A DNA stretch of 64,000 bases. It comes from Planctomycetota bacterium (GTDB lineage Bacteria; Planctomycetota; Phycisphaerae; Phycisphaerales; Phycisphaeraceae). Both the position numbers and the translations under genes were made by a program. Below the pieces are notes generated by a model. It was not told the DNA's origin. It was given only the letters and a program-made list of their open reading frames with translations, and ran no database searches. The DNA lies in NCBI GenBank assembly GCA_021413865.1, contig JAIOPN010000062.1, forward strand, positions 62,001-126,000, in the 5' to 3' direction. Below are positions 48,623 through 60,873 of the stretch, one piece after another (the first letter of the stretch is position 1; every line of letters begins with the position of its first letter).

Positions 48623-48934
48623 ATGCCGCACGACGTCACCGATCGCAACCGAACCCGCACGCAGGTCGCCGATCTCTATTTCATGGAGCACCGCGCCAAG
48701 ACGCTGGACGTGGCGGCCTTTCTTGACCGCCACGACCGCGCGGCCGGCGACGAGGATTTCCGCGTGGCTCAACTCCGTCAGGCGGCGGCGATCCTCACCG
48801 ACGGAAAGCCCGACCGCGCCAAGCGTATCCTTGAGCTGATGAGCGACCCGACACTCGAGCCGATCGCCAGGGCGGGGAGCAAGGGGGCGACCGGGGCGTA
48901 CGCCCCGACAACCACGGAGCGGGCGAAACCCTGA
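48623..48934 (+). CDS. Small conserved-looking protein leading the eboB operon
   Basis: The 103-residue protein starts at the ATG at 48623, preceded by GGAGGAG. It is helical ([20 protein letters not shown], then [20 protein letters not shown]), soluble and without cysteines. I do not see the longer EboA sequence in it. The last base of its stop is the first base of eboB, so translation is coupled. It could be a structural or regulatory partner of EboB, or a planctomycete-specific replacement for EboA. Both ideas are inferences. Confidence 0.75.
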
Positions 48935-49740
48935 TGCGTTACATCGACCCGCACATCCACATGGTCTCGCGGACCACCGACGACTACCGCCACATGGCGC
49001 TGGCGGGCTGCGTCGCGGTAACGGAGCCGGCCTTCTGGGCGGGGTTCGACCGCTCCTCGCCGCAGGGGTTTTACGATTATTTCCGGCAACTCACCGAGAC
49101 CGAGCCGCGCCGCGCCGCCGCGCACGGCATCAAGCACTTCACATGGCTCTGCATCAACCCCAAGGAGGCGGAGGACCCCGTCTTCGCGCGCGAGGTCATC
49201 GCGTTGATCCCGGATTTCCTTGATAAGCCGAACGTCCTGGGCATCGGCGAGATCGGCCTTAATAAAAATAGTTGCAACGAACTCTCGATCCTCGAAGACC
49301 AGATCGCCCTGGCGGACAGGCACAACCAGCTCATACTCGTGCACACGCCGCACCTGGAGGACAAGCTCAAGGGGACGCGCCTCATCATCGACGCCATCCG
49401 GCGCAACACGCGGATCGACCCGGGGCGCGTGCTGATCGACCACGTGGAGGAGCACACGGTGCGGGCCGTGCTGGACGCGGGGATGTGGGCGGGCATGACG
49501 CTCTACCCGGACTCGAAATGCACCGCCCAGCGCGCGGCGGACATCATCGAGGTGTACGGCAACGAGCGCATCTGGATTAACTCCGCCGGAGACTGGGGCC
49601 ACAGCGACCCGCTCGCCGTGCCCAAGGCGGCGCTGGAGATGCGGCGTCGCGGGCATTTGGAGGCCTCCATTCAAAATGTCACGTTCGACAACCCCCAGAA
49701 GTTCCTGGGGCAGTCGCCGAGGTTCAAGATCGATGAGTGA
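48934..49740 (+). CDS. eboB: EboB, TatD-like metal-dependent hydrolase
   Basis: The 268-residue amidohydrolase-fold protein has the metal ligands H7 and H9 (IDPHIHM), E106 (GIGEIGLNK), H140 or H137 (LVHTPH), H170 (LIDHVEEH) and D220 (NSAGDW), all in TatD positions. In the Ebo clusters of other bacteria and of eustigmatophyte plastids, the TatD-like member is EboB. The substrate is unknown. It overlaps eboE by eight bases. Confidence 0.88.
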
Positions 49741-50950
49741 TTACGACCCGCTGGGCGTCGGGGTCCCGCTGGCGTACTGCACCAACGTGCACGCCGGGGC
49801 GACGCTCGAGCAAACCCTCGCCAACCTGGAGAAGCACGCCTGCGCGGTGCGCCGGATCGTCTGCCCGGACAAGACGATGGGCGTGGGCCTCTGGCTCAGC
49901 GCCGAAGCGGCGCAGCAGGTCGTAACGGAGAACCGCACCACCGAGCTGCGCGCCTGGCTCGCCGAGCGCGACCTGACGGTGCGCACGATGAACGGCTTCC
50001 CCTACGGCAATTTCCACGAGGCCGTCGTCAAGCACGCCGTCTATGAACCCGACTGGGCGGACCCGCGCCGGCTGGAATACACCAAGCACCTCATCACGAT
50101 CCTCGCCGCGCTCCTCCCCGCCAACGGCGAGGGGAGCATCTCGACGCTGCCGATCGGCTGGCGGCCGTCGTTTGCGATGTCGATGGTCCGTCAGCGTGGG
50201 GCCGCCGAGCAACTGCTCGACCTGGTGCATTTCCTGGCACGGGTGGAGCTGGACACCGGGCGGTACATCCATATTGATCTGGAGCCCGAGCCGGGCTGCC
50301 TGCTCGACACCGCCGCGGACGTGATCGGTTTTTTTGAGCGTTACCTTCTCAAGAACCCGGACGAGGTGAGCGTCCGCGCCTACCTGCGGGTCTGCCACGA
50401 CATCTGCCACTCGGCGGTCATGTTCGAGCCGCAGGAAGAGGTGATCCGGGCCTACACCCGCGCGGGATTGGGTGTCGGCAAAGTGCAGGTCTCCTCGGCG
50501 GTGCGCGTCGCGTTTGATGAATTGCCGGAGGCCCATCGCGCCCAAGCGATGGAGCAACTCAGGGCGTTCGACGAGCCGCGGTATCTGCACCAGACATGCG
50601 TCCGCGGCAAACCGACTTCCAAACCGGTGTTCCACGAAGACCTCTCCGCGGCGCTGGCGGGCGTATCGGGCGAAGTCGGCGGCGAGTGGCGGGTGCATTT
50701 CCACGTCCCGCTCTTCCTCGAACAGTTCGGTCAACTGGGCACGACGCAGGAGCAGATCCTCCCCGCCGTGCGCGCGGCCATCGCCGCGGGCACGAAACAT
50801 TTCGAGGTCGAGACCTACGCGTGGTCCGTGCTGCCGCCGGAGCTGCGCACCGGCGAGCTGGCGGAGGGCATCGCCCGGGAGATGACCTGGCTCGCGGGGG
50901 TCATGAACGCGCCGGTCAATCGCCCCACAAGGCCGCGCCCGGCACGCTGA
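49733..50950 (+). CDS. eboE: EboE, metabolite-traffic TIM-barrel protein
   Basis: The 405-residue protein has the xylose-isomerase-like fold start [20 protein letters not shown] and repeated (beta-alpha) segments such as [20 protein letters not shown] and [20 protein letters not shown], with a metal-site-like [15 protein letters not shown] near the end. This pattern is that of EboE. The ATG at 49733 lies inside the end of eboB; an upstream start at 49676 would overlap more. It is followed by eboC after four bases. Confidence 0.88.
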
Positions 50951-50954
50951 CACC

Positions 50955-51821
50955 ATGCAGACCCGCCACTGGCTCCAACTCTGTCGCGTCAGCAACGTGC
51001 CCACCGTGGTGGGCAACGTGCTCGTCGGCTGCGCCCTCAACGCCTCGTTCTCACAGGGTTTCCCGTGGTTGCGGGCGGCGGTCGTCTCCGTCGCCATCGT
51101 GCTGCTCTACATCGCGGGCATGGCCCTCAACGATGTCTGCGACGCCGGCCTCGACCGCGTCGAACGCCCCGAGCGCCCGATCCCCTCCGGAAAAATCACC
51201 CGGCAGCAGGCGGCGATCTTCGTCGCCCTCGCGATGGTACTCGGCCTGGCGATCCTCTCCGTCATCTCGTTCTTCACGCTGCTCTCCGGCCTGATGCTGA
51301 TGGCGATGATCATTGCCTACGACACGCTGCATAAGCGTGCCTCGTGGATCGCTCTGCTGATGGGCGTCTGCCGCGGGCTGGTCTATGTCACGGCGGCGGT
51401 GGCCGTGGGCTGGCCGCCGGCGTGGCCGGAGATGCTCTCGTTCGCGGTGATGCTGACGGCCTACGTCATGCTGCTGACGCTCGTGTCGCAGGCGGAGAAC
51501 GCCGAGCAGCTCGCGGGCCGTGCGTGGCTGTCGGCGGTGATCCTCCTGCTCGCCCTCTTCGCGCCGCCGATCCGCCTGCACGGCGGGCCGTGGTGGGCGA
51601 TCTTCCCGGCCGCGCTGCTGGCGTGGTGGATGTACCGCGCCTGCCGGGCCGTGTTCGCCAAACCGCCGCAGACCAAACGCGCAATCCTCACCTGGCTCTC
51701 GGGCTTGTGCCTGTTCGACGCCTACATCCTCGCCCTGCTCGGTTGGCCGTGGCCCTGCGCGGCGGCGCTGGTCTGTTTCCTCGCCACCACGCGGCTGCAC
51801 AGGCGTATCATGGGGACGTAA
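50955..51821 (+). CDS. eboC: EboC, UbiA-like membrane prenyltransferase family protein
   Basis: The 288-residue protein has about eight transmembrane helices and the first Asp-rich motif of UbiA enzymes, NDVCDAGLDRVERPERPIPS. The second motif (ATIIAYDTLHKRASW region) lacks the full DxxxD, so catalysis is uncertain. Family members transfer polyprenyl groups to aromatic or sugar acceptors. It is the EboC of the locus, between eboE and eboF. Confidence 0.88.
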   Translation: MQTRHWLQLCRVSNVPTVVGNVLVGCALNASFSQGFPWLRAAVVSVAIVLLYIAGMALNDVCDAGLDRVERPERPIPSGKITRQQAAIFVALAMVLGLAILSVISFFTLLSGLMLMAMIIAYDTLHKRASWIALLMGVCRGLVYVTAAVAVGWPPAWPEMLSFAVMLTAYVMLLTLVSQAENAEQLAGRAWLSAVILLLALFAPPIRLHGGPWWAIFPAALLAWWMYRACRAVFAKPPQTKRAILTWLSGLCLFDAYILALLGWPWPCAAALVCFLATTRLHRRIMGT

Positions 51822-51824
51822 CCC

Positions 51825-53210
51825 ATGCCCTACCCCACCGCCGTCATCAATGTCGTGGGCCTCACCACGTCGATCCTCGGCGACCACACGCCCCACCTCC
51901 TGGCGCTCGCCAAGGCCGGCTCGGTCCGCCGGCTGCGGCTAGAGTTCCCCGCCGTCACCTGCAGCGTGCAGGCGAGCATGCTCACGGGCCTGCGCCCCAT
52001 CCGGCACGGCATCGTCGGCAACGGCTGGTACGACCGCGACCTCTCCGAGGTCCACTTCTGGAAGCAGAGCAACCGCCTGGTGCACGGCGAAAAGGTGTGG
52101 GAGGCCGCCCGCGTGCGCGACCCGTCGGTCACCTGCGCGAACCTCTTCTGGTGGTTCAACATGTACTCCAGCGCGGACGTCTCGGTCACGCCGCGGCCGA
52201 TGTACAAGGCGGACGGCCGAAAGATTCCCGACTGTCACACGCGCCCCGCCGACCTGCGCGACCGGCTGCAAGCGGAACTGGGCGCGTTCCCGCTCTTCAA
52301 CTTCTGGGGGCCGGGGGCGTCGATCGTGTCGAGCCGGTGGATCGCCGACGCCGCAATGCGCGTGCACACCTGGCACAAACCAACGCTCTCGCTGATCTAC
52401 CTGCCGCACCTGGACTACGCCCTGCAAAAGCTCGGCCCGGAGCACGCGGGCGTCAAGAGCGCCGCCGCCGAGATCGATGGGCAGGTCGGGCGGCTGCTCG
52501 ATTATTTTAATAAGCACGGCGTGCGCGTGATCGTGCTGAGCGAGTACGGCATCGAGCCTGTGACGGAGGCGATCCCGATCAATCGCGTGCTGCGACAGGC
52601 CGGGGCGTTGAAGGTGCGGCTCGAAGATGGATTAGAAATGCTCGACGCCGGTGCAAGCGATGCGTTTGCCGTCGCCGACCACCAGGCGGCGCACGTTTAC
52701 GTCAACGACCCGGCGCAGGTCGGCCACCTCGCCGCCATGTGCGCGTCGATCAAGGGGGTCGCCCGGGTGCTCGACCGCAAGGCGCAGACGGAGATGGAGT
52801 TGGCCCACCGCCGCGCGGGGGATTTGGTGCTCGTCGCCGAGCCGGGCCATTGGTTCAGCTACCCGTGGTGGCTGGACGACTCCCGTGCCCCCGACTTTGC
52901 CCGCACCGTCGATATCCACCGCAAGCCCGGCTACGACCCGCTCGATCTCTTCATCAACCCGAAGCTCACCCTGCCCAGCCTGCACATCGCCTTCAAGCTG
53001 GGCCTCCGCAAGCTCGGCTTCCGAACCCTGCTGGACGTGATCCCGCTGGATACCCGGCTCGTCCGCGGGTCGCACGGCCGGGTGGACATGCCCCTGCCGC
53101 TCCAACCCCTGCTCATCACCCGCAAGCCCCTGGAAGACCCCGACGAACCCGTCCCCTGCCACCGGGTCCATGATGTCATCCTGGACCACCTTTTTCGGCC
53201 TGAATTGTGA
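51825..53210 (+). CDS. eboF: EboF, alkaline-phosphatase-superfamily phosphodiesterase
   Basis: The 461-residue protein belongs to the type I phosphodiesterase/nucleotide pyrophosphatase group. The nucleophile region is FPAVTCSVQASMLTGLRP, and metal ligands appear in YLPHLDYALQKLGP and LSEYGIEPVTEAIPINRVLR. No signal peptide is visible. It ends the eboB-eboE-eboC-eboF operon and is followed after 15 bases by the third copy of the hairpin repeat, a likely transcript end. Confidence 0.88.
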   Translation: MPYPTAVINVVGLTTSILGDHTPHLLALAKAGSVRRLRLEFPAVTCSVQASMLTGLRPIRHGIVGNGWYDRDLSEVHFWKQSNRLVHGEKVWEAARVRDPSVTCANLFWWFNMYSSADVSVTPRPMYKADGRKIPDCHTRPADLRDRLQAELGAFPLFNFWGPGASIVSSRWIADAAMRVHTWHKPTLSLIYLPHLDYALQKLGPEHAGVKSAAAEIDGQVGRLLDYFNKHGVRVIVLSEYGIEPVTEAIPINRVLRQAGALKVRLEDGLEMLDAGASDAFAVADHQAAHVYVNDPAQVGHLAAMCASIKGVARVLDRKAQTEMELAHRRAGDLVLVAEPGHWFSYPWWLDDSRAPDFARTVDIHRKPGYDPLDLFINPKLTLPSLHIAFKLGLRKLGFRTLLDVIPLDTRLVRGSHGRVDMPLPLQPLLITRKPLEDPDEPVPCHRVHDVILDHLFRPEL

Positions 53211-53340: not shown

Positions 53341-53400
53341 TTTTCACCGTACAACCTGTACGAAAACGGGGTACTCCCACGCTAGGGAGGGTGCAGTACC
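53341..53400. promoter_or_regulatory. Two small inverted repeats upstream of the FecR gene
   Basis: TTTTCACCGTACAACCTGTA followed by CGAAAA contains the inverted pair GTACA/TGTAC inside TTTTC/GAAAA (53341-53366). Just downstream, GGTACTCCC and GGGAGGGTGCAGTACC can pair (53369-53399). They sit where an operator or leader of the FecR-ExbBD operon would be. No clear -35/-10 pair is assigned. Confidence 0.35.
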
Positions 53401-53448: not shown

Positions 53449-54567
53449 ATGCACGACAGGGATTTGGACCAATTTGAACGGCTGTTAGCACGGCTGGACC
53501 AGCGCAAGCCCGGCGAACCGGAGGAGGCCGCCCTCACCGAGCCCGGCGACGCGGAGGACCTGGCCTCCATGCAGGAGCTTGCCCACGCGCTGGCCGACCG
53601 GTCTCGGGGGGACGCCGCCCACTTCACGCTCGCGCAGGTCACCGAACTGGTCCGCCAGCGCCGCGATCAGGGCCAGGAATGGGTCGTGCCCGACCATGTG
53701 GCGGCCTGCCCGCTCTGCCTCGAAGCATTCGAGATCGTGCTGACGGGCTGGTCCGAGACGGACCCGGCATCGCTCGCCCGCTACCGCGCCCTCTTCCCCG
53801 GGAAGACCGAAGATGTCGCCGGCCGCATCGACCCGACCACCGCGCCGCTGATCGCCCCGCGCAGCCGCCGGCGCGTGCCGTGGGCCGGGCTGGGGCGTGT
53901 TGCCGCGGCCATCGCCTTCATCGCATTGCTCATCATCGGGTGGAACGCCTACAACAAGCCGACCGGCTCGACCAACGCGATGCTCGCCGAGGGCGGGCTG
54001 GTGATCGACGACGGCGTCATCACCGTTGACGAAGCCCTGACTCCCCCCACCGCCGCGGCGCCGGGCAACAAGCCCTCGGCCGTGAAACCGATCCCTGTCG
54101 GACAGGTCCTGGCCTCGGGCCAGCGTGCCATCGCCACCAAGCGGACCAAGCTCGCCTTCCGCGATGGCAGCACGCTGGAGATCGAGGGCAGGTCGCGCAT
54201 CGCCGTCGAGGAACCCGTGAGCGGGCAGGTCACCGTCCGCCTCCAGGCCGGCGCGGTCACCGCCTCGGTCACCAAGCGGAAACCCGGGCAGACCTTCGGC
54301 GTGTTCACCCCGCTAGGGGACGTCGCCGTCGTCGGCACGCGGTTCAGCGTCGCGTGCGAGGGCGAGGACGTGGAGGTCTTCCAGAACAACCCCGGCCTGA
54401 CGGCGCCGCACCAGAGCAGCGCGACCTTGCGGGCCGTCACCGTCACCGTCTTCGAGGGCATCGTCCGCGTCAACAACCGGCGTGACACGGTGCAGGTCCG
54501 CGCCGGCCACACCGCCACGCTCCACGAAGACCCGCCGACGATCGACATCGCGGAGACGAGGCCATGA
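53449..54567 (+). CDS. FecR-domain anti-sigma factor with HxxxCxxC zinc motif
   Basis: The 372-residue protein has a cytoplasmic N-terminus with the zinc anti-sigma motif H83-x3-C87-x2-C90 (DHVAACPLCLEAFE), a transmembrane helix at residues about 149-167 (RVAAAIAFIALLIIGWNAY) and a periplasmic FecR domain (VLASGQRAIATKRTKLAFRD, then TPLGDVAVVGTRFSV). FecR/anti-sigma proteins hold a sigma factor until a periplasmic signal arrives. The likely partner is the sigma factor at 60319. The ATG is preceded by GAAGAGAGAG. It overlaps the next gene by four bases. Confidence 0.86.
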   Translation: MHDRDLDQFERLLARLDQRKPGEPEEAALTEPGDAEDLASMQELAHALADRSRGDAAHFTLAQVTELVRQRRDQGQEWVVPDHVAACPLCLEAFEIVLTGWSETDPASLARYRALFPGKTEDVAGRIDPTTAPLIAPRSRRRVPWAGLGRVAAAIAFIALLIIGWNAYNKPTGSTNAMLAEGGLVIDDGVITVDEALTPPTAAAPGNKPSAVKPIPVGQVLASGQRAIATKRTKLAFRDGSTLEIEGRSRIAVEEPVSGQVTVRLQAGAVTASVTKRKPGQTFGVFTPLGDVAVVGTRFSVACEGEDVEVFQNNPGLTAPHQSSATLRAVTVTVFEGIVRVNNRRDTVQVRAGHTATLHEDPPTIDIAETRP

Positions 54568-57191
54568 GGGCGGCCCGCGGCGCGGCACGTGCGGCCTTGA
54601 TCGCATCGCTGGTTTTGGGATCGTTCGCCCCGCCGGCTTTCGCCGACGCCGAGGAGGCGCAGTACAACGTCGTGGTCAGCCTCTACAACGCCGGCCAGTG
54701 GCAGGCGGCGGTCTCCAAGATCGACGAACGGCTCAAGCTCGAGCTGCCCGACGCCATGCGGGCGCGCTACGTTTACGCGAAAGGCCTCGCGTTCGAGCGT
54801 GGCCAGAAGACCAAAGAGGCCCACGCCGCCTATGACGAACTGTTGACGAAATACCCCGCCGCCGCCGAGGTTCACACCGCCCGCGTGGCCATCCTCTACC
54901 TGGATTACGCCGCTGGGGAGAGCGTCGCGGTGACCGCCGGTTATCCGAAGATCGACCAGGGCAAGCTCGCCGCCGGGGACAAGCGCAACCTCACACTGAT
55001 GTACGCCGAGAGCCTCGCCACGCAGGGGCAGGCGCAGCCGGCCGTCGCCGCGTACAAGGCCGCGATCGCCGCCGGGGCGGACGCCGCACCGCTGGCACCC
55101 CGCCTCTTCGGGCTGTACCACCAGCTCGGGATGAACGCAGACCTGCTGGCGGCCTCCGCCAACGGCGTGACAGGCATCGACGCCGACACGCTGGCGCTGG
55201 TCCGCGCCGAGGCGATGCTCGCCCTCAACCAGTTCCCCCAGGCCGACGCGGAGGCTGCCAAGGTGCGGGAGTCGGGCGACCTCTACCCGCGTGCCTCGTT
55301 CATCCGCGCCCAGTCGCTGATCCGGCAGAACAAGCTCAGGGAGGCCGCCGCGCCACTCGCGATTGCCGTGGCCAGGATGAAAAACCCGGCCGCGCCCCCC
55401 TCGGCACGGCTGGCGCTGGCGGAGTGCTTCATCGAGGCGGGCAACGCCGAGGGCGCGGCCGACGCCGTCGCCGGCGCGGAAAAACTGATCGACACGCTGC
55501 CCGACGCCGACCGCGCCAAGACGCGCGCCCAGGCGTCGCTCATCAAGGTGCGCCTGGCGCTGGCGTCGAAGGACCGCAAGCGGATCGCCAAGGCCGTCGC
55601 CGACGCCCGCGCCGCCGTCCCCGCCGATCAGCTCCCCAAGCTGCTCTACGCCCGCCTCTTCGCGCTCTCGGAAGAGGGCGAGAACAAGGCGATCGTGCAA
55701 TCGATGGCCCAAGACCTGCCCGTGCTCCAGACCAGCGACGAGTACGGCCCCTCCGCGATGATCTTCGCCGCCGCCCTCCGCGCCACTGGCCAGCCCGATG
55801 AGGCGATGAAGGTGCTACAGGAGCTGATCCAGAAAAAGCCGGCCGCGCCCGAGGCGGTCAAGGCCCGCGTGGTGATCGCCAACGCCCTACTCGACAAGGG
55901 CGACACCGCCGGCGCGGCCGCGCTGCTCGACGCCGTCGTCGCCGACAAGCAGTCGCCCGAACGGTTAGGCAAGGCCGCGATGGACGAGGTGCTCTTCAAC
56001 CGCGCCGTGCTCGCGGAGAAAAACGGCAACCACGACGCCGCCATCCAATCGCTCACGGCCCTGCTCGCCTCTACCCCTACCGATGAGACCGCCAAGCAGG
56101 CCGCCCCGCTGCTGGGCCAGGCGTACGCCGCCAAGGGCGACTTCGCCAACGCCGCGGCGACGTGGAAAAAAGCCCTGGCCGACGGCCGATTCCGCGACGA
56201 GGCGGACCTGCGCGACCGCCTCTCCCGCGCCCAGTTCGCCGTGAAGGATTACGCCGGCGTGGTCGAGCAGATGGAGGCCTGGTCCAAAACGCTCAAGGAC
56301 CCGGCGAAGCTGCCGCGCGAGAGCCGTGAACTCTGGGCGCGCTCGCTCTTCTCCGCCAACCGCTTCGCCGATTCCGCCGCGATGTACGCCACGCTCGCCG
56401 AGTCGCACCGGGACACGCCCGGTTACGCCTACGAGGCGGGCGTCGCCTACGACCGCGCCAACGACGCCGCCTCCGCCGAGAAGTGGTACGGCAAGGCGCA
56501 GAGCAACAAAGAAAAACTGCCGCCCGAGTACGCCGCGGCGGTGGACGACAACCTCGCCTCCCTGCGGCTGCGCAGCGGCACGGGCGACATGGGCGCCTCC
56601 ATGTGGCTGGACCGGCTGGCGTCGGCGAAGGACGAGAAAGAGTTCGACCAGGCCTCCGCGGCGGTGCGGAAGGTGCTCCAGGCCGGCAAGCTCGGCCCCA
56701 CCGAGCGCGGCCGGCTGACGCAGATCATGAACGGCCTGCCCGTCGAGAAATCGCGCCGCTACGCCGTGGGCGCGCTGCTCCTCGAATCCCTCCTCGCCGC
56801 CAACGACCTCAAAACCGCCGGCCAGATCGCCGACGCGCTCAACGACGCCTTCACCGCCAACGAAAAGACGATCCCCGCCACCGAATCCGGCGCGACGCTC
56901 GGCCCGGCGGTCATCCACTTCGCCCGCGGCGAGTCCATGCGCGACAGGGGCAGGCCCACCGACGCCCTGGTGGAGTACGAGACCGTGCTGTCGGCCTACC
57001 CATACAACGAGTGGCCCGACGCCGCCGCCTGCGGCGCCGCCGAGTGCTACGCCGTTCTGGGCGACAAGGCCACCGCCATCACCAAGTTTCAGGAAGTCAT
57101 TGCCGTGAACCCGCCCCCGCCCGCCTCCGCCAGATGGCGGGAGCTGGCGCAGCGACGCATCGCCGAACTTCAGAAGGAGGTCAAGCCTTGA
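54564..57191 (+). CDS. Exported tetratricopeptide-repeat protein, 875 residues
   Basis: The product has a signal peptide (AALIASLVLGSFAPPAFADA) and many TPR-like helical pairs through its length (YNVVVSLYNAGQWQAAVSKI at the N-terminus, YAVLGDKATAITKFQEVIAV at the C-terminus). TPR arrays scaffold protein complexes, and exported ones often sit with TolQ/ExbB systems (as CpoB/YbgF does with Tol). It overlaps the FecR gene by ATGA and the ExbB gene by TTGA, so it is translated as part of one unit. The binding partners are unknown. Confidence 0.86.
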   Translation: MRAARGAARAALIASLVLGSFAPPAFADAEEAQYNVVVSLYNAGQWQAAVSKIDERLKLELPDAMRARYVYAKGLAFERGQKTKEAHAAYDELLTKYPAAAEVHTARVAILYLDYAAGESVAVTAGYPKIDQGKLAAGDKRNLTLMYAESLATQGQAQPAVAAYKAAIAAGADAAPLAPRLFGLYHQLGMNADLLAASANGVTGIDADTLALVRAEAMLALNQFPQADAEAAKVRESGDLYPRASFIRAQSLIRQNKLREAAAPLAIAVARMKNPAAPPSARLALAECFIEAGNAEGAADAVAGAEKLIDTLPDADRAKTRAQASLIKVRLALASKDRKRIAKAVADARAAVPADQLPKLLYARLFALSEEGENKAIVQSMAQDLPVLQTSDEYGPSAMIFAAALRATGQPDEAMKVLQELIQKKPAAPEAVKARVVIANALLDKGDTAGAAALLDAVVADKQSPERLGKAAMDEVLFNRAVLAEKNGNHDAAIQSLTALLASTPTDETAKQAAPLLGQAYAAKGDFANAAATWKKALADGRFRDEADLRDRLSRAQFAVKDYAGVVEQMEAWSKTLKDPAKLPRESRELWARSLFSANRFADSAAMYATLAESHRDTPGYAYEAGVAYDRANDAASAEKWYGKAQSNKEKLPPEYAAAVDDNLASLRLRSGTGDMGASMWLDRLASAKDEKEFDQASAAVRKVLQAGKLGPTERGRLTQIMNGLPVEKSRRYAVGALLLESLLAANDLKTAGQIADALNDAFTANEKTIPATESGATLGPAVIHFARGESMRDRGRPTDALVEYETVLSAYPYNEWPDAAACGAAECYAVLGDKATAITKFQEVIAVNPPPPASARWRELAQRRIAELQKEVKP

Positions 57192-57862
57192 ATTACTTCA
57201 TCCAGACCGTTGACCTGTTCCTGCGCGGCGGCATGTTCATGTGGCCGCTGCTGATCGCCGCCATCGCCGCCATCGTGCTTATCGTCGAGCGGCTGCTCTA
57301 CCTGCGTGAGAACCGCATCAACTGGGACCGCTTCCACTTCGAGCTTAAGAGCGCTCTCAAGGAGAACGACTTGGAGCGTGCCACGGTGCTGGCCGCCAAG
57401 ACCAGGGGCGTCATCGGCCGGGTGATGGAGGAGTGCCTCCTGAAGATCAAGGCCGGCGAGACCGACGTGGAGAGCGCCACCGAAAAGATCATCCTCGACG
57501 AGATGTCGTCGATGGAAAAATCGCGCGGCTGGCTCGCCGTCATCATCCAGGTCTCCCCGCTGCTGGGCATCATCGGCACCGTGCAGGGCATGATTGTCTG
57601 CTTCATGTCCATCGAGGCCTCCGCCACCACCGACCCCAAACTCCTGGCCAGCGGCATCTACACCGCGCTCATCACCACCTTCGGCGGCCTGGTCGTCACC
57701 ATCCCCACCGCCGTCGCCCAGGAGTACTTCCGCAAGGAGATCAACAACATCCTCCACTTCATGGACCTCTACCTCATCGAGGTCCGCGAGTGGCAGGATA
57801 AGCGGACGGGCCTGGACGACGGCCACGGCAAGGAGACCGAGCATGCGCTCCAGCACGCGTAA
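57188..57862 (+). CDS. exbB: ExbB/TolQ/MotA-family proton channel subunit
   Basis: The 224-residue protein has three membrane helices (about residues 13-35, 113-140 and 155-178) and the family core GWLAVIIQVSPLLGIIGTVQ, then YTALITTFGGLVVTIPTAVA. ExbB pentamers with ExbD use the proton gradient to move a partner protein. The start is a TTG at 57188 because AAGGAGG lies eight bases upstream and the TTGA overlaps the TPR gene stop; no ATG fits. The exbD start lies inside its 3' end. Confidence 0.92.
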   Translation: MNYFIQTVDLFLRGGMFMWPLLIAAIAAIVLIVERLLYLRENRINWDRFHFELKSALKENDLERATVLAAKTRGVIGRVMEECLLKIKAGETDVESATEKIILDEMSSMEKSRGWLAVIIQVSPLLGIIGTVQGMIVCFMSIEASATTDPKLLASGIYTALITTFGGLVVTIPTAVAQEYFRKEINNILHFMDLYLIEVREWQDKRTGLDDGHGKETEHALQHA

Positions 57863-58277
57863 GCGCCACCGCCTCGAGCCCAGCAACGGCATGGACATGA
57901 CGCCCCTGATCGACGTCGTGTTCCAGCTCATCCTTTTCTTTATGCTGACCTCGAGCCTGACGCGCCCCAACCAGATCCAGCTCGACCTCCCCGAGTCCTC
58001 CAGCGGCGTCAAGGCGCAGGAGGAGCAGTCGCTCGTGGTCTCCTACCGCATCGCCGAGGGCGGCCCCGCCATCCTGCTCAACGACAAGCCCGTCGCCCAG
58101 CTCTCCAAGCTCGGCGAAGCGATGGCCGCCATCGCCCAGCCCAGCGAAAAGCCGCGCGTCGATATCCGCATCGACAAAACCGTGCCCTACCAGGAAGTCA
58201 TCTCGCTCATGGACACGGTGCGCGACGCTGGATTCCCGAAGTTTTCCCTCCAGACCCTGGCCGGCGGGAGCCGCTAA
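57843..58277 (+). CDS. exbD: ExbD/TolR-family protein
   Basis: The 144-residue protein has one N-terminal helix with the proton-path aspartate D24 (GMDMTPLIDVVFQLILFFML) and a periplasmic domain (RVDIRIDKTVPYQEVISLMD). It overlaps exbB by 20 bases, and its stop is followed directly by the next ATG. It forms the stator complex with ExbB. Confidence 0.92.
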   Translation: MRSSTRKRHRLEPSNGMDMTPLIDVVFQLILFFMLTSSLTRPNQIQLDLPESSSGVKAQEEQSLVVSYRIAEGGPAILLNDKPVAQLSKLGEAMAAIAQPSEKPRVDIRIDKTVPYQEVISLMDTVRDAGFPKFSLQTLAGGSR

Positions 58278-60206
58278 ATGCCCCACGGGCATGACCATCA
58301 CGGGAGCGGCAACGGGAACGGGCACAGCCACGGCCCCGCGGCCAAGGTGCGCCTCGTCGGCACCGTCGCCGGCGTGGACGCCTGCCACCTGCTCACCGAC
58401 GGCGACAACCTCGTCGCCGGCTCGGCGCTCGCCTGCGACCTGGTCATCGCCGACCCCCTCGTCCCCCGCCGCGCTTTCCGCCTCCGCGAGGTCAAGGACC
58501 ACCGCGAGCGAGGCAGGGCCTGCGACTCGGGCTGGGTCTTCGAGGCGCTGCCCGGCGCCCGCGTCTTCGTCAACAACGAACTGGCCTCCCGCGAGCACCT
58601 GCACTTCGGAGACACCATCGCCTTGGGCTGCCACCGCTTCACCTTCCTCGACGGCCGGTCCGACGAGCGCGACCGCCGTGCCAACATCGACGTCGAGGAC
58701 CTCTGCACCGCACTGGTCAAACCGCTTCCCATCCCCACCGGCTTCCTCCAGGGCCAGGCGAGTTGGCGCGACCGCGTGCGCAGCCGGAAGGCAATCGTCC
58801 CCGGCATCCTGCTCGCGTTGCTCGCCGCGCTGCTGCTCTTCCTGTTCCACCAGCCGGAAAAAATCTTCGAGCAGATGCAGGAGCCGATCGAGGTGGTCAT
58901 GGCCCCGTCGGAGGTCGGCCCGCCCTCGCCCGGTGCGGTCCGCTCCATGGCGCAGGTGCAGCGGCAGACCGTCGCGACCCCCTCCGACAACGACAAGCCC
59001 GCCGGCATCCAGGACAAGACCGTCCAGCCGATACGCAACCTGAGCATCGACACCATGGCCATGAAGAACGACGCACTGACCCCGGCGCCGCCAGTGGAGG
59101 TCAGCCGTGTGATGGACCAAACGACGCCCGACCTCGCGCCGCTCGCGATGGCCGCGCCGGCCCCGGCGAAAATCGAGATGAAGCGCGATACGGCGGCCCT
59201 GAGCCGCAGCGCCCCCGTACGGCGGCTATCGGTCGCCGAGGCCGCCACACTCGCCGCAAGACAGGACGTGACTTTTGCTGACGGCGTGGCGGGCGGCACG
59301 GGCCGGGTGAAAACCAACAAGGGCACGATCCAAGCCAGCACCAGCACGGTCGTGTCATCGCAGGCCGCCCAGCAGCGTGCCACTCCGCCGCCGGCCAAAC
59401 TCGACCAGGGCAAGGCCGACGTGCTCGCCGGCCTGCGCTACCAGGCCAGCCCCGTGCAGACCGAGTCCTACATGGGCACGCGCATCCCGGTGGCGCGCAT
59501 GACCGAATCGCTCTCCGCGATCCCCGGCGCGGAAACAGCGGGCGCCGGCGGCTCCGGCAACGTCAGTGGGCCCTCCAAGAGCTACACCCTCGACGGCGAG
59601 GTCTCCGACGGCGAGATCGCCCTGAGCAACCTGAAGACCGGCCGATTCGTCGTCCACGGCCCCGGCACCCCACCCTGGGCCGAACCCGCTACGTACTGCT
59701 ACGTCGGCAAAACGGTCGTCGATGGCAAGCCGTTCCTCTACGTCTCATTCGTCTGCACCGACCCGAACGTTGACGCGATCGTGAACAGCTACGCCAACAA
59801 CCCCGGGTCTTACCGCATCGAGAAGGACGACAGCGTCGAGATATTCCTCGACACGACGTACAACCGGACGAGCTACTACCAGATGATCATCAACACGCGC
59901 GGCCTGTACTGGACGCAGTACGCCCCCGACGCAACGCGCGGCATCAACGCCGAGGGCACCGCATGGGACGCCTCGCCGCGCATCAAGACGACGATCAACC
60001 GCGCCGGCGGCCGATGGACGGTCGAGGCCCTCATCCCGTTCGATCGCCTGGGTGGGGTGCCCGCCCCCGGCTCGCGCTGGGCGGTCAACTTCGTCCGCAA
60101 CTACCGCGGCCAGACAAACCCCGGCGGCTACCAGAACTGGTTCTCGGTCTATGACGCCTCGGTCAACTACCACCACCCCCGCCTGTTCGGCGCGTTCCAG
60201 TGGTGA
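58278..60206 (+). CDS. FHA-like / single TM / CBM9 protein in TonB position
   Basis: The 642-residue protein has a His/Gly-rich start, an FHA-like beta domain (residues about 22-125, GARVFVNNELASREHLHFGD) and one membrane helix (173-190, VPGILLALLAALLLFLF). A 240-residue Ala/Pro/Thr-rich linker leads to a C-terminal carbohydrate-binding family 9 domain (from about 440; YRIEKDDSVEIFLDTTYNRT, then RWTVEALIPFDRLGG). The FHA would be cytoplasmic and the CBM9 periplasmic. The gene begins with zero spacing after exbD, where a TonB or TolA gene usually stands, and the linker resembles TonB. It may be the moved partner, but there is no TonB C-terminal fold. It is followed by hairpin copy 4. Confidence 0.82.
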   Translation: MPHGHDHHGSGNGNGHSHGPAAKVRLVGTVAGVDACHLLTDGDNLVAGSALACDLVIADPLVPRRAFRLREVKDHRERGRACDSGWVFEALPGARVFVNNELASREHLHFGDTIALGCHRFTFLDGRSDERDRRANIDVEDLCTALVKPLPIPTGFLQGQASWRDRVRSRKAIVPGILLALLAALLLFLFHQPEKIFEQMQEPIEVVMAPSEVGPPSPGAVRSMAQVQRQTVATPSDNDKPAGIQDKTVQPIRNLSIDTMAMKNDALTPAPPVEVSRVMDQTTPDLAPLAMAAPAPAKIEMKRDTAALSRSAPVRRLSVAEAATLAARQDVTFADGVAGGTGRVKTNKGTIQASTSTVVSSQAAQQRATPPPAKLDQGKADVLAGLRYQASPVQTESYMGTRIPVARMTESLSAIPGAETAGAGGSGNVSGPSKSYTLDGEVSDGEIALSNLKTGRFVVHGPGTPPWAEPATYCYVGKTVVDGKPFLYVSFVCTDPNVDAIVNSYANNPGSYRIEKDDSVEIFLDTTYNRTSYYQMIINTRGLYWTQYAPDATRGINAEGTAWDASPRIKTTINRAGGRWTVEALIPFDRLGGVPAPGSRWAVNFVRNYRGQTNPGGYQNWFSVYDASVNYHHPRLFGAFQW

Positions 60207-60227
60207 GCCCGCTTGTTTCAGGCTCAC

Positions 60228-60264
60228 CAAGCCCGATGACGAGTCCGCGAGTCGTCGGGGTCCC
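60228..60264 (+). repeat. GAGTCCGCGA-loop hairpin, copy 4
   Basis: CCCGATGAC (60232-60240) pairs with GTCGTCGGG (60251-60259) with one G-U pair, around the loop GAGTCCGCGA. It lies after the CBM9 gene and just before the sigma-factor promoter. Confidence 0.82.
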
Positions 60265-60281
60265 AAAAGCAGCTTTTGGCC

Positions 60282-60310
60282 TTGGTTTTATACCCCCGGC
60301 GTGGTATAAA
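60282..60310 (+). promoter_or_regulatory. Sigma-70-like promoter of the sigma-factor gene
   Basis: TTGGTT (60282-60287) and TATAAA (60305-60310) are spaced by 17 bases. Only eight bases lie between the -10 box and the GTG at 60319, so the transcript should be leaderless or nearly so. TATAAA matches the consensus at five of six positions and TTGGTT at three. Confidence 0.5.
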
Positions 60311-60318
60311 ATTGCTCC

Positions 60319-60873
60319 GTGAAACCCGCCCCGCAAGCGGCGCTCGACGCCCTGCTCGAGCGCATCCTCAAACACGACCGCGACGCGTGGGATCGGCTCG
60401 TCCGAGACTACTCGGGTTTTCTCACGGCCATCGCACGCAAGGTCTTCACCTCCTACGGCGCCTCCACCGCGACCCACGACGTCGAGGACGCTGTCGGCGA
60501 CGTCTGGAAGAACCTCATCGAGAACGACTGCCGCGTCATCCGCCTCTGCCTCGAGCGGAACAACTTCCTCCAGACCCTTCAGGTGATCGCCCGCAACCGC
60601 TGCGTGGACATCCTCCGCCGCAGGCAGGGGGCGATGACGCTCAACGACATACAGCCCGCCCAGCCGACCCGCCCCGAGCCCGAGTGCTCGCCCGAGGAGC
60701 TCGCACGCATCGTCGATGAACTCCCTCAGCGCGAGCGGCTGCTCATCACGCTCTTCTTTTTGCAGGGCAAGAAATACCGCGAGATCGCCGACCTCACCGG
60801 CATCCCGCAGAACAGCATCGGGCCGACCATCGCGCGAGCGCTGGCACGCCTTCGTAAAACGATCAAAGACTGA
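60319..60873 (+). CDS. RNA polymerase sigma factor, sigma-70/ECF type
   Basis: The 184-residue protein has region 2 (DAWDRLVRDYSGFLTAIARK, then HDVEDAVGDVWKNLIEND) and region 4 (LPQRERLLITLFFLQGKKYR, then EIADLTGIPQNSIGPTIARA). It lacks region 3, as ECF sigmas do. The GTG at 60319 is the first in-frame start and follows a likely promoter. It is close to the FecR-ExbBD group on the same strand but separated by a hairpin and its own promoter. The FecR protein is its likely anti-sigma partner. Confidence 0.9.
   Translation: MKPAPQAALDALLERILKHDRDAWDRLVRDYSGFLTAIARKVFTSYGASTATHDVEDAVGDVWKNLIENDCRVIRLCLERNNFLQTLQVIARNRCVDILRRRQGAMTLNDIQPAQPTRPEPECSPEELARIVDELPQRERLLITLFFLQGKKYREIADLTGIPQNSIGPTIARALARLRKTIKD

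Follow-up and report, generated by a model that had tools for sequence, protein, structure and literature searches.

A putative CBM9-headed force transducer encoded with ExbB, ExbD and a FecR-sigma pair in Planctomycetota

ExbB and ExbD normally drive TonB or TolA. In a Planctomycetota contig, the gene that follows them encodes a protein with an FHA-like domain, one membrane helix, a long linker and a CBM9 domain, which raises the question of what this motor drives and what the neighboring FecR anti-sigma and sigma factor have to do with it. An earlier note on the window (the whole stretch of 64,000 nucleotides analyzed here) had proposed that carbohydrate binding in the periplasm is coupled to ExbBD and reported to the sigma factor. 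All six genes that it had described are present where it had placed them, and Pfam backs each assignment except that of the FHA domain:

53449 to 54567, + strand: zinc-type FecR anti-sigma (PF04773, 2.2e-12)
54564 to 57191, + strand: exported TPR protein of 875 aa with an N-terminal signal peptide (TPR_16, 5.7e-20)
57188 to 57862, + strand: ExbB/TolQ-like proton-channel subunit with a TTG start (MotA_ExbB, PF01618, 9.6e-25)
57843 to 58277, + strand: ExbD/TolR-like subunit (PF02472, 1.1e-29)
58278 to 60206, + strand: FHA-like/TM/linker/CBM9 protein of 642 aa, proposed force transducer (full-length orthologs adjoin ExbD wherever found)
60319 to 60873, + strand: ECF-like sigma factor, cognate partner of FecR (TIGR02937, 4e-20; Sigma70_r4_2, 5.9e-12)

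The first five genes overlap or abut, with gaps of -4, -4, -20 and 0 bases, and the sigma gene lies outside this run, 112 bases past the FHA-CBM9 gene; the tight spacing, the export of the TPR protein encoded before ExbB and the zinc-type FecR at the head of the operon all agree with the earlier reading. An Rfam scan of the region returned no RNA family. Directly upstream, at window positions 48934 to 53210 on the + strand, lies an Ebo-like metabolite-traffic cluster with genes for a TatD-like protein, EboE (NF035939, 448.9 bits), an EboC-like UbiA prenyltransferase and a type I phosphodiesterase.

Both domains of an ExbB-ExbD/TolQ-TolR motor are encoded, together with its pore threonines and membrane aspartate. 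Thr131 and Thr164 of ExbB, at the positions of Thr148 and Thr181 in E. coli ExbB, are invariant in 9 of 9 sequences, as is the membrane residue Asp24 of ExbD. In searches of the PDB, ExbB matched the ExbB structure 5sv0 (2e-10) and ExbD the ExbD structure 7ajq (1e-11). Four other MotA/ExbB-family genes and one TonB_C protein are also present in the genome.

With its single helix, its long linker and its gene beside the motor genes, the FHA-CBM9 protein follows the general plan of TonB and TolA. The following parts were distinguished:

58347 to 58649, + strand: FHA/YscD-like cytoplasmic domain (YscD_cpl in 8 of 9 orthologs, FHA in 3 of 9)
58791 to 58847, + strand: single transmembrane helix, residues 172 to 190 (hydropathy 2.86 over 19 residues)
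58884 to 58901, + strand: D-box-like motif PIEVVM, residues 203 to 208, of the pattern P[ILVM][ED][VI]x[MILV]
58902 to 59585, + strand: Pro-rich periplasmic linker, probably disordered (8 to 15% Pro; pLDDT <50)
59586 to 60203, + strand: CBM9-like C-terminal head (PF06452 in 9 of 9 orthologs; the model matches 4jpq, E 2.4e-4)

In the window protein, the N-terminal domain is matched in Pfam by Yop-YscD_cpl alone (0.0029), so that the assignment of an FHA-like domain is weak there but holds across the family. Equivalents of the canonical FHA residues GR and SxxH are absent from 8 of 8 orthologs, one Asn being retained, which makes it unlikely that the domain binds phosphothreonine. At the other end, the head has a CBM9_1 match of 1.8e-9. 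Pfam yields CBM9 and YscD_cpl only for the window protein, with no TonB_C or TolA C-terminal domain, and a PDB sequence search with the transducer gave a weak CBM9 match alone. The sugar-stacking tryptophans of CBM9-2 we take to be W71 and W175; in a weak alignment, the W71 position is non-aromatic in 8 of 9 orthologs and the W175 position is aromatic (Y/F) in 8 of 9, and sugar binding by the head appears plausible. AlphaFold models, based on shallow alignments, had mean pLDDT values of 37 and 57, and residues 191 to 471 of the FHA-CBM9 model fell below 50 throughout.

The D-box-like pattern lies within 35 residues past the membrane helix in all eight orthologs that have the region (shuffle p 0.0006 to 0.004 each). 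ExbD takes the D-box peptide of TonB, QPISVTMVTPAD, as a beta strand in which buried Ile, Val and Met alternate and prolines flank (PMC10907165). Its counterpart in the window, QEPIEVVMAP, matches QPISVTMVTPAD in the flanking Pro and the alternating hydrophobic residues. The S-x3-H (SHLS-type) motif, which joins TonB and TolA to ExbB and TolQ (PMC12215075), was found in the membrane helix of none of eight orthologs, and docking to the motor must therefore differ from that of TonB and TolA. S-x3-H does occur in the genome's three remaining tethered transducers, which belong to the vWA-headed locus L038 and the toroid-headed locus L039.

Locus L038 (G000:C14, 6419 to 12759) contains ExbB, three ExbD-like genes and two vWA-headed tethered proteins, and belongs to the published vWA transducer class. 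Locus L039 (G000:C47, 6336 to 14317) is a second TPR-ExbB-ExbD operon, whose transducer of 1159 aa combines S-x3-H in the membrane helix with an extremely long linker rich in Gly and a head that resembles an alpha/alpha toroid (weak matches to SQHop/TED). This head may be a further type that has not been described.

Among 60 relatives searched, G007 and G017 have full-length FHA-CBM9 orthologs (44 to 45% identity), which sit in a five-gene order identical to that of the window operon, with TPR orthologs 50 to 54% identical in the same place. Matches to other CBM9 proteins in the relatives span the head alone and were set aside. The FHA-CBM9 gene occurs in 3 of 51 genomes of the window's family; a scan of GTDB contigs gave one further copy, whose class, labeled Verrucomicrobia, then yielded five more (6 of 288 genomes). 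TPR, ExbB, ExbD and FHA-CBM9 are contiguous in all nine genomes carrying the gene (the copy in G789 is split across two contigs), and this linkage, which two distant groups share although their proteins are only some 40% identical, rules out chance. No FHA-CBM9 gene was found apart from the motor in the genomes sampled, in keeping with the earlier view that the protein replaces TonB or TolA beside ExbBD. That view had been staked on the FHA-CBM9 gene not being widespread without ExbBD and on joint conservation of the flanking genes, and the nine linked copies bear it out; of the six-gene neighborhood that was to be sought in relatives, TPR-ExbB-ExbD-FHA/CBM9 recurred throughout, whereas sigma and FecR did not (G1031 and G802). 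The gene set is rare but conserved. In a tree of FHA-CBM9 sequences with long branches, the window sequence pairs with that of G918 from the other class (96/96), and the three family copies do not form one clade, so that horizontal transfer of the gene is likely, with the caution that long branches demand.

On balance, we lean toward a reading in which the FHA-CBM9 protein is an ExbBD-driven force transducer of the TonB/TolA type, within a machine that is usually under sigma/FecR control via a GTACGA element. In the inner membrane, ExbB and ExbD would make up a motor driven by protons, and the FHA-CBM9 protein would take the role of force transducer held elsewhere by TonB or TolA. Its FHA-like domain would lie in the cytoplasm, probably docking a protein partner, and its membrane helix would sit beside ExbB. 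Just outside the membrane, the D-box-like strand would be gripped by the periplasmic dimer of ExbD, and the Pro-rich linker would cross the periplasm to a CBM9 head that pulls on a target, either glycan-bearing or a protein, located at the wall or the outer membrane. The exported TPR protein may serve as a scaffold; no gene for an outer-membrane target was found in the operon. The vWA- and toroid-headed versions at L038 and L039 in the same genome speak for a transducer, as do the published vWA-headed transducers with the same TPR-TolQ-TolR context; the lack of S-x3-H speaks against one.

The FecR protein consists of a cytoplasmic Hx3Cx2C segment (residues 83 to 90), one TM helix and a periplasmic FecR domain. 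The zinc motif is invariant in six of six operon-linked FecR proteins, and the FecR model resembles the PupR signaling domain 6ovk and the anti-sigma 4m0n. A cognate sigma and a membrane anti-sigma with a FecR domain are thus both at hand, as in FecI/FecR-type systems. Of the 51 family genomes, the 3 with the operon, and no others, have an ortholog of the sigma factor (Fisher p 4.8e-5); in the second class it is present in 4 of 6 operon genomes versus 3 of 282 others (Fisher p 1.8e-6), both tests treating genomes as independent and ignoring shared ancestry. The G007 ortholog is unlinked to the operon. Four loci (L134 and L145 to L147) have sigma and FecR side by side in the canonical order, and in G821 the order is sigma-FecR-TPR-ExbB-ExbD-FHA/CBM9. 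By contrast, TPR-ExbB-ExbD-FHA/CBM9 persists in G1031 and G802, whose genomes lack a sigma ortholog and whose operons have no FecR nearby, and G820, G842 and G861 have a sigma-FecR pair with no motor nearby. Sigma therefore belongs with FecR, as had been suggested from the window, and the two make up one module, without which the motor can exist. The pairs of L145, L146 and L147 are related, and those of L146 and L147 have a toroid protein and a giant protein as neighbors (with a PA14 domain in the L147 copy).

Two short features bear on the control of these genes:

53341 to 53364, + strand: TTTT-N12-TGTACGAA, proposed promoter/operator element upstream of FecR (core 53357 to 53364)
60305 to 60310, + strand: TATAAA, weak candidate for a vegetative -10 box of the sigma gene, read from the sequence and not called by the promoter scan

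Each of the genomes G000, G007 and G017 has a single exact copy of TTTT-N12-TGTACGAA, always upstream of FecR. In the second group the TTTT part is not kept, and the conserved core is GTACGA alone, found at most 135 bases upstream of FecR in 9 of 9 genes of the sigma-FecR family; in 500 rounds of a shuffle control, any 6-mer was common to at most six regions. GTACGA was found upstream of none of the sigma genes examined, nor upstream of the TPR gene in G1031 and G802, which have no sigma-FecR module. The frame of GTACGAA relative to FecR differs among loci, and we rejected it as coding sequence; a wider regulon was also rejected, matches to TTTT-N12-TGTACGAA with one mismatch being only at control level. 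A sigma70 promoter scan found nothing, and no -35 box was recognized at the GTACGA element. The sigma gene is probably leaderless, starting at GTG with the TATAAA-like box just before it. An inverted repeat, TTTTATACC...GGTATAAAA (window 60280 to 60315), overlaps this likely -10 box. Since the element lies upstream of the FecR gene that heads the operon, none lies upstream of sigma, and two genomes have the motor without sigma, the simplest explanation is that the machine is expressed under sigma/FecR control, probably from an autoregulated operon: the ECF-like sigma would recognize GTACGA upstream of FecR, and the zinc-type FecR would be its anti-sigma partner.

The same facts tell against the relay to sigma that the earlier note had put forward. 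Spelled out, CBM9 would bind a periplasmic sugar, ExbBD would energize the response and FecR would free sigma, much as in TonB-dependent signaling but without an outer-membrane receptor. Such a sensor is favored by the PupR-like model of FecR, by the co-inheritance of the cognate sigma, and by the lack of a receptor barrel in the genome, so that FecR needs some other input. However, motor and head persist without the sigma-FecR module in two genomes, the pair stands away from any motor in three, one of the two stacking Trp residues of CBM9-2 appears not to be conserved, and the element precedes FecR and not sigma, for which expression control is the simplest reading. We regard the energized sensor as doubtful, and a sugar-sensing relay to sigma as possible but unsupported. 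Hardly more persuasive is a receptor-free transducer whose carbohydrate-binding-type head handles an envelope glycan while FecR reads the tension or occupancy of the head and frees sigma; if true, it would be an energized machine for both glycan handling and sensing.

It is very unlikely that the motor energizes an unlinked outer-membrane import channel for oligosaccharides or nutrients, as TonB would. ExbBD is present, and in Fibrobacter an operon encoding TonB/ExbB/ExbD domains goes up on cellulose (PMC6851124). But the observation that no TonB-dependent receptor is encoded in the window extends to the genome, which is 95% complete and has no PF00593 barrel, and this weakens the transporter reading; moreover, the head is not TonB_C, a domain found in a separate protein of the genome, and none of the loci examined has a linked transporter. 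We give equally little credence to a machine for gliding or adhesion of the kind of Agl-Glt in Myxococcus, in which GltG (FHA-TM-TonB) links the motor AglRQS with adhesion to surfaces: the FHA-TM-linker plan and the TPR and ExbBD-like partners are shared, and AglR and GltG interact by two-hybrid (PMC3169522), but no other glt-like gene is linked and the head differs from that of GltG.

As a transducer, the FHA-CBM9 protein resembles several known systems without coinciding with any. It shares with TonB-ExbB-ExbD and TolA-TolQ-TolR the motor residues, the bitopic topology and a D-box-like strand after the TM helix, but it lacks SHLS and the TonB/TolA C-terminal domain, in a genome without a receptor barrel; since two defining features are missing, we do not class it in that family. 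Closer kin are the TPR-TolQ-TolR-vWA force transducers reported in 2025 in Planctomycetes, Verrucomicrobia and others (PMC12204202), which likewise combine TPR, TolQ-like and TolR-like proteins with a TM-tethered protein having a disordered linker and a non-TonB head, in the same phyla. Unlike these (PMC12204202), the present system has a CBM9 head, an FHA-like cytoplasmic domain, no SHLS, one ExbD where they have paired tolR-like genes, and usually a dedicated FecR-sigma module. GltG/AglRQS of Myxococcus xanthus (PMC3169522) is alike in its domain plan, with an FHA domain, one TM helix, a linker, a TolQ/R-type motor partner and TPR proteins nearby, but GltG ends in a TonB domain and is accompanied by other glt genes. 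The regulatory pair resembles FecI/FecR and PupI/PupR in joining an ECF-like sigma to a membrane anti-sigma whose periplasmic FecR domain has a PupR-like fold in its model, and differs in its zinc-motif anti-sigma domain, in the lack of a TonB-dependent receptor (PF00593 search) and in that the FecR-headed operon encodes a motor. None of the papers listed in a literature search describes a CBM9-headed ExbBD system; given the vWA-headed kin, the candidate undescribed system of the earlier note is nonetheless partly known in kind.

The CBM9 head and the GltG-like FHA domain join the short list of outputs of ExbBD/TolQR motors, and the loci of this one genome suggest motors fitted with several heads: CBM9, vWA, alpha/alpha toroid and TonB. 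A D-box-like strand without SHLS splits two docking features that are normally paired in TonB and TolA, so that their roles may be tested separately, and the sigma-FecR pair with its GTACGA element would offer a ready genetic handle on the machine.
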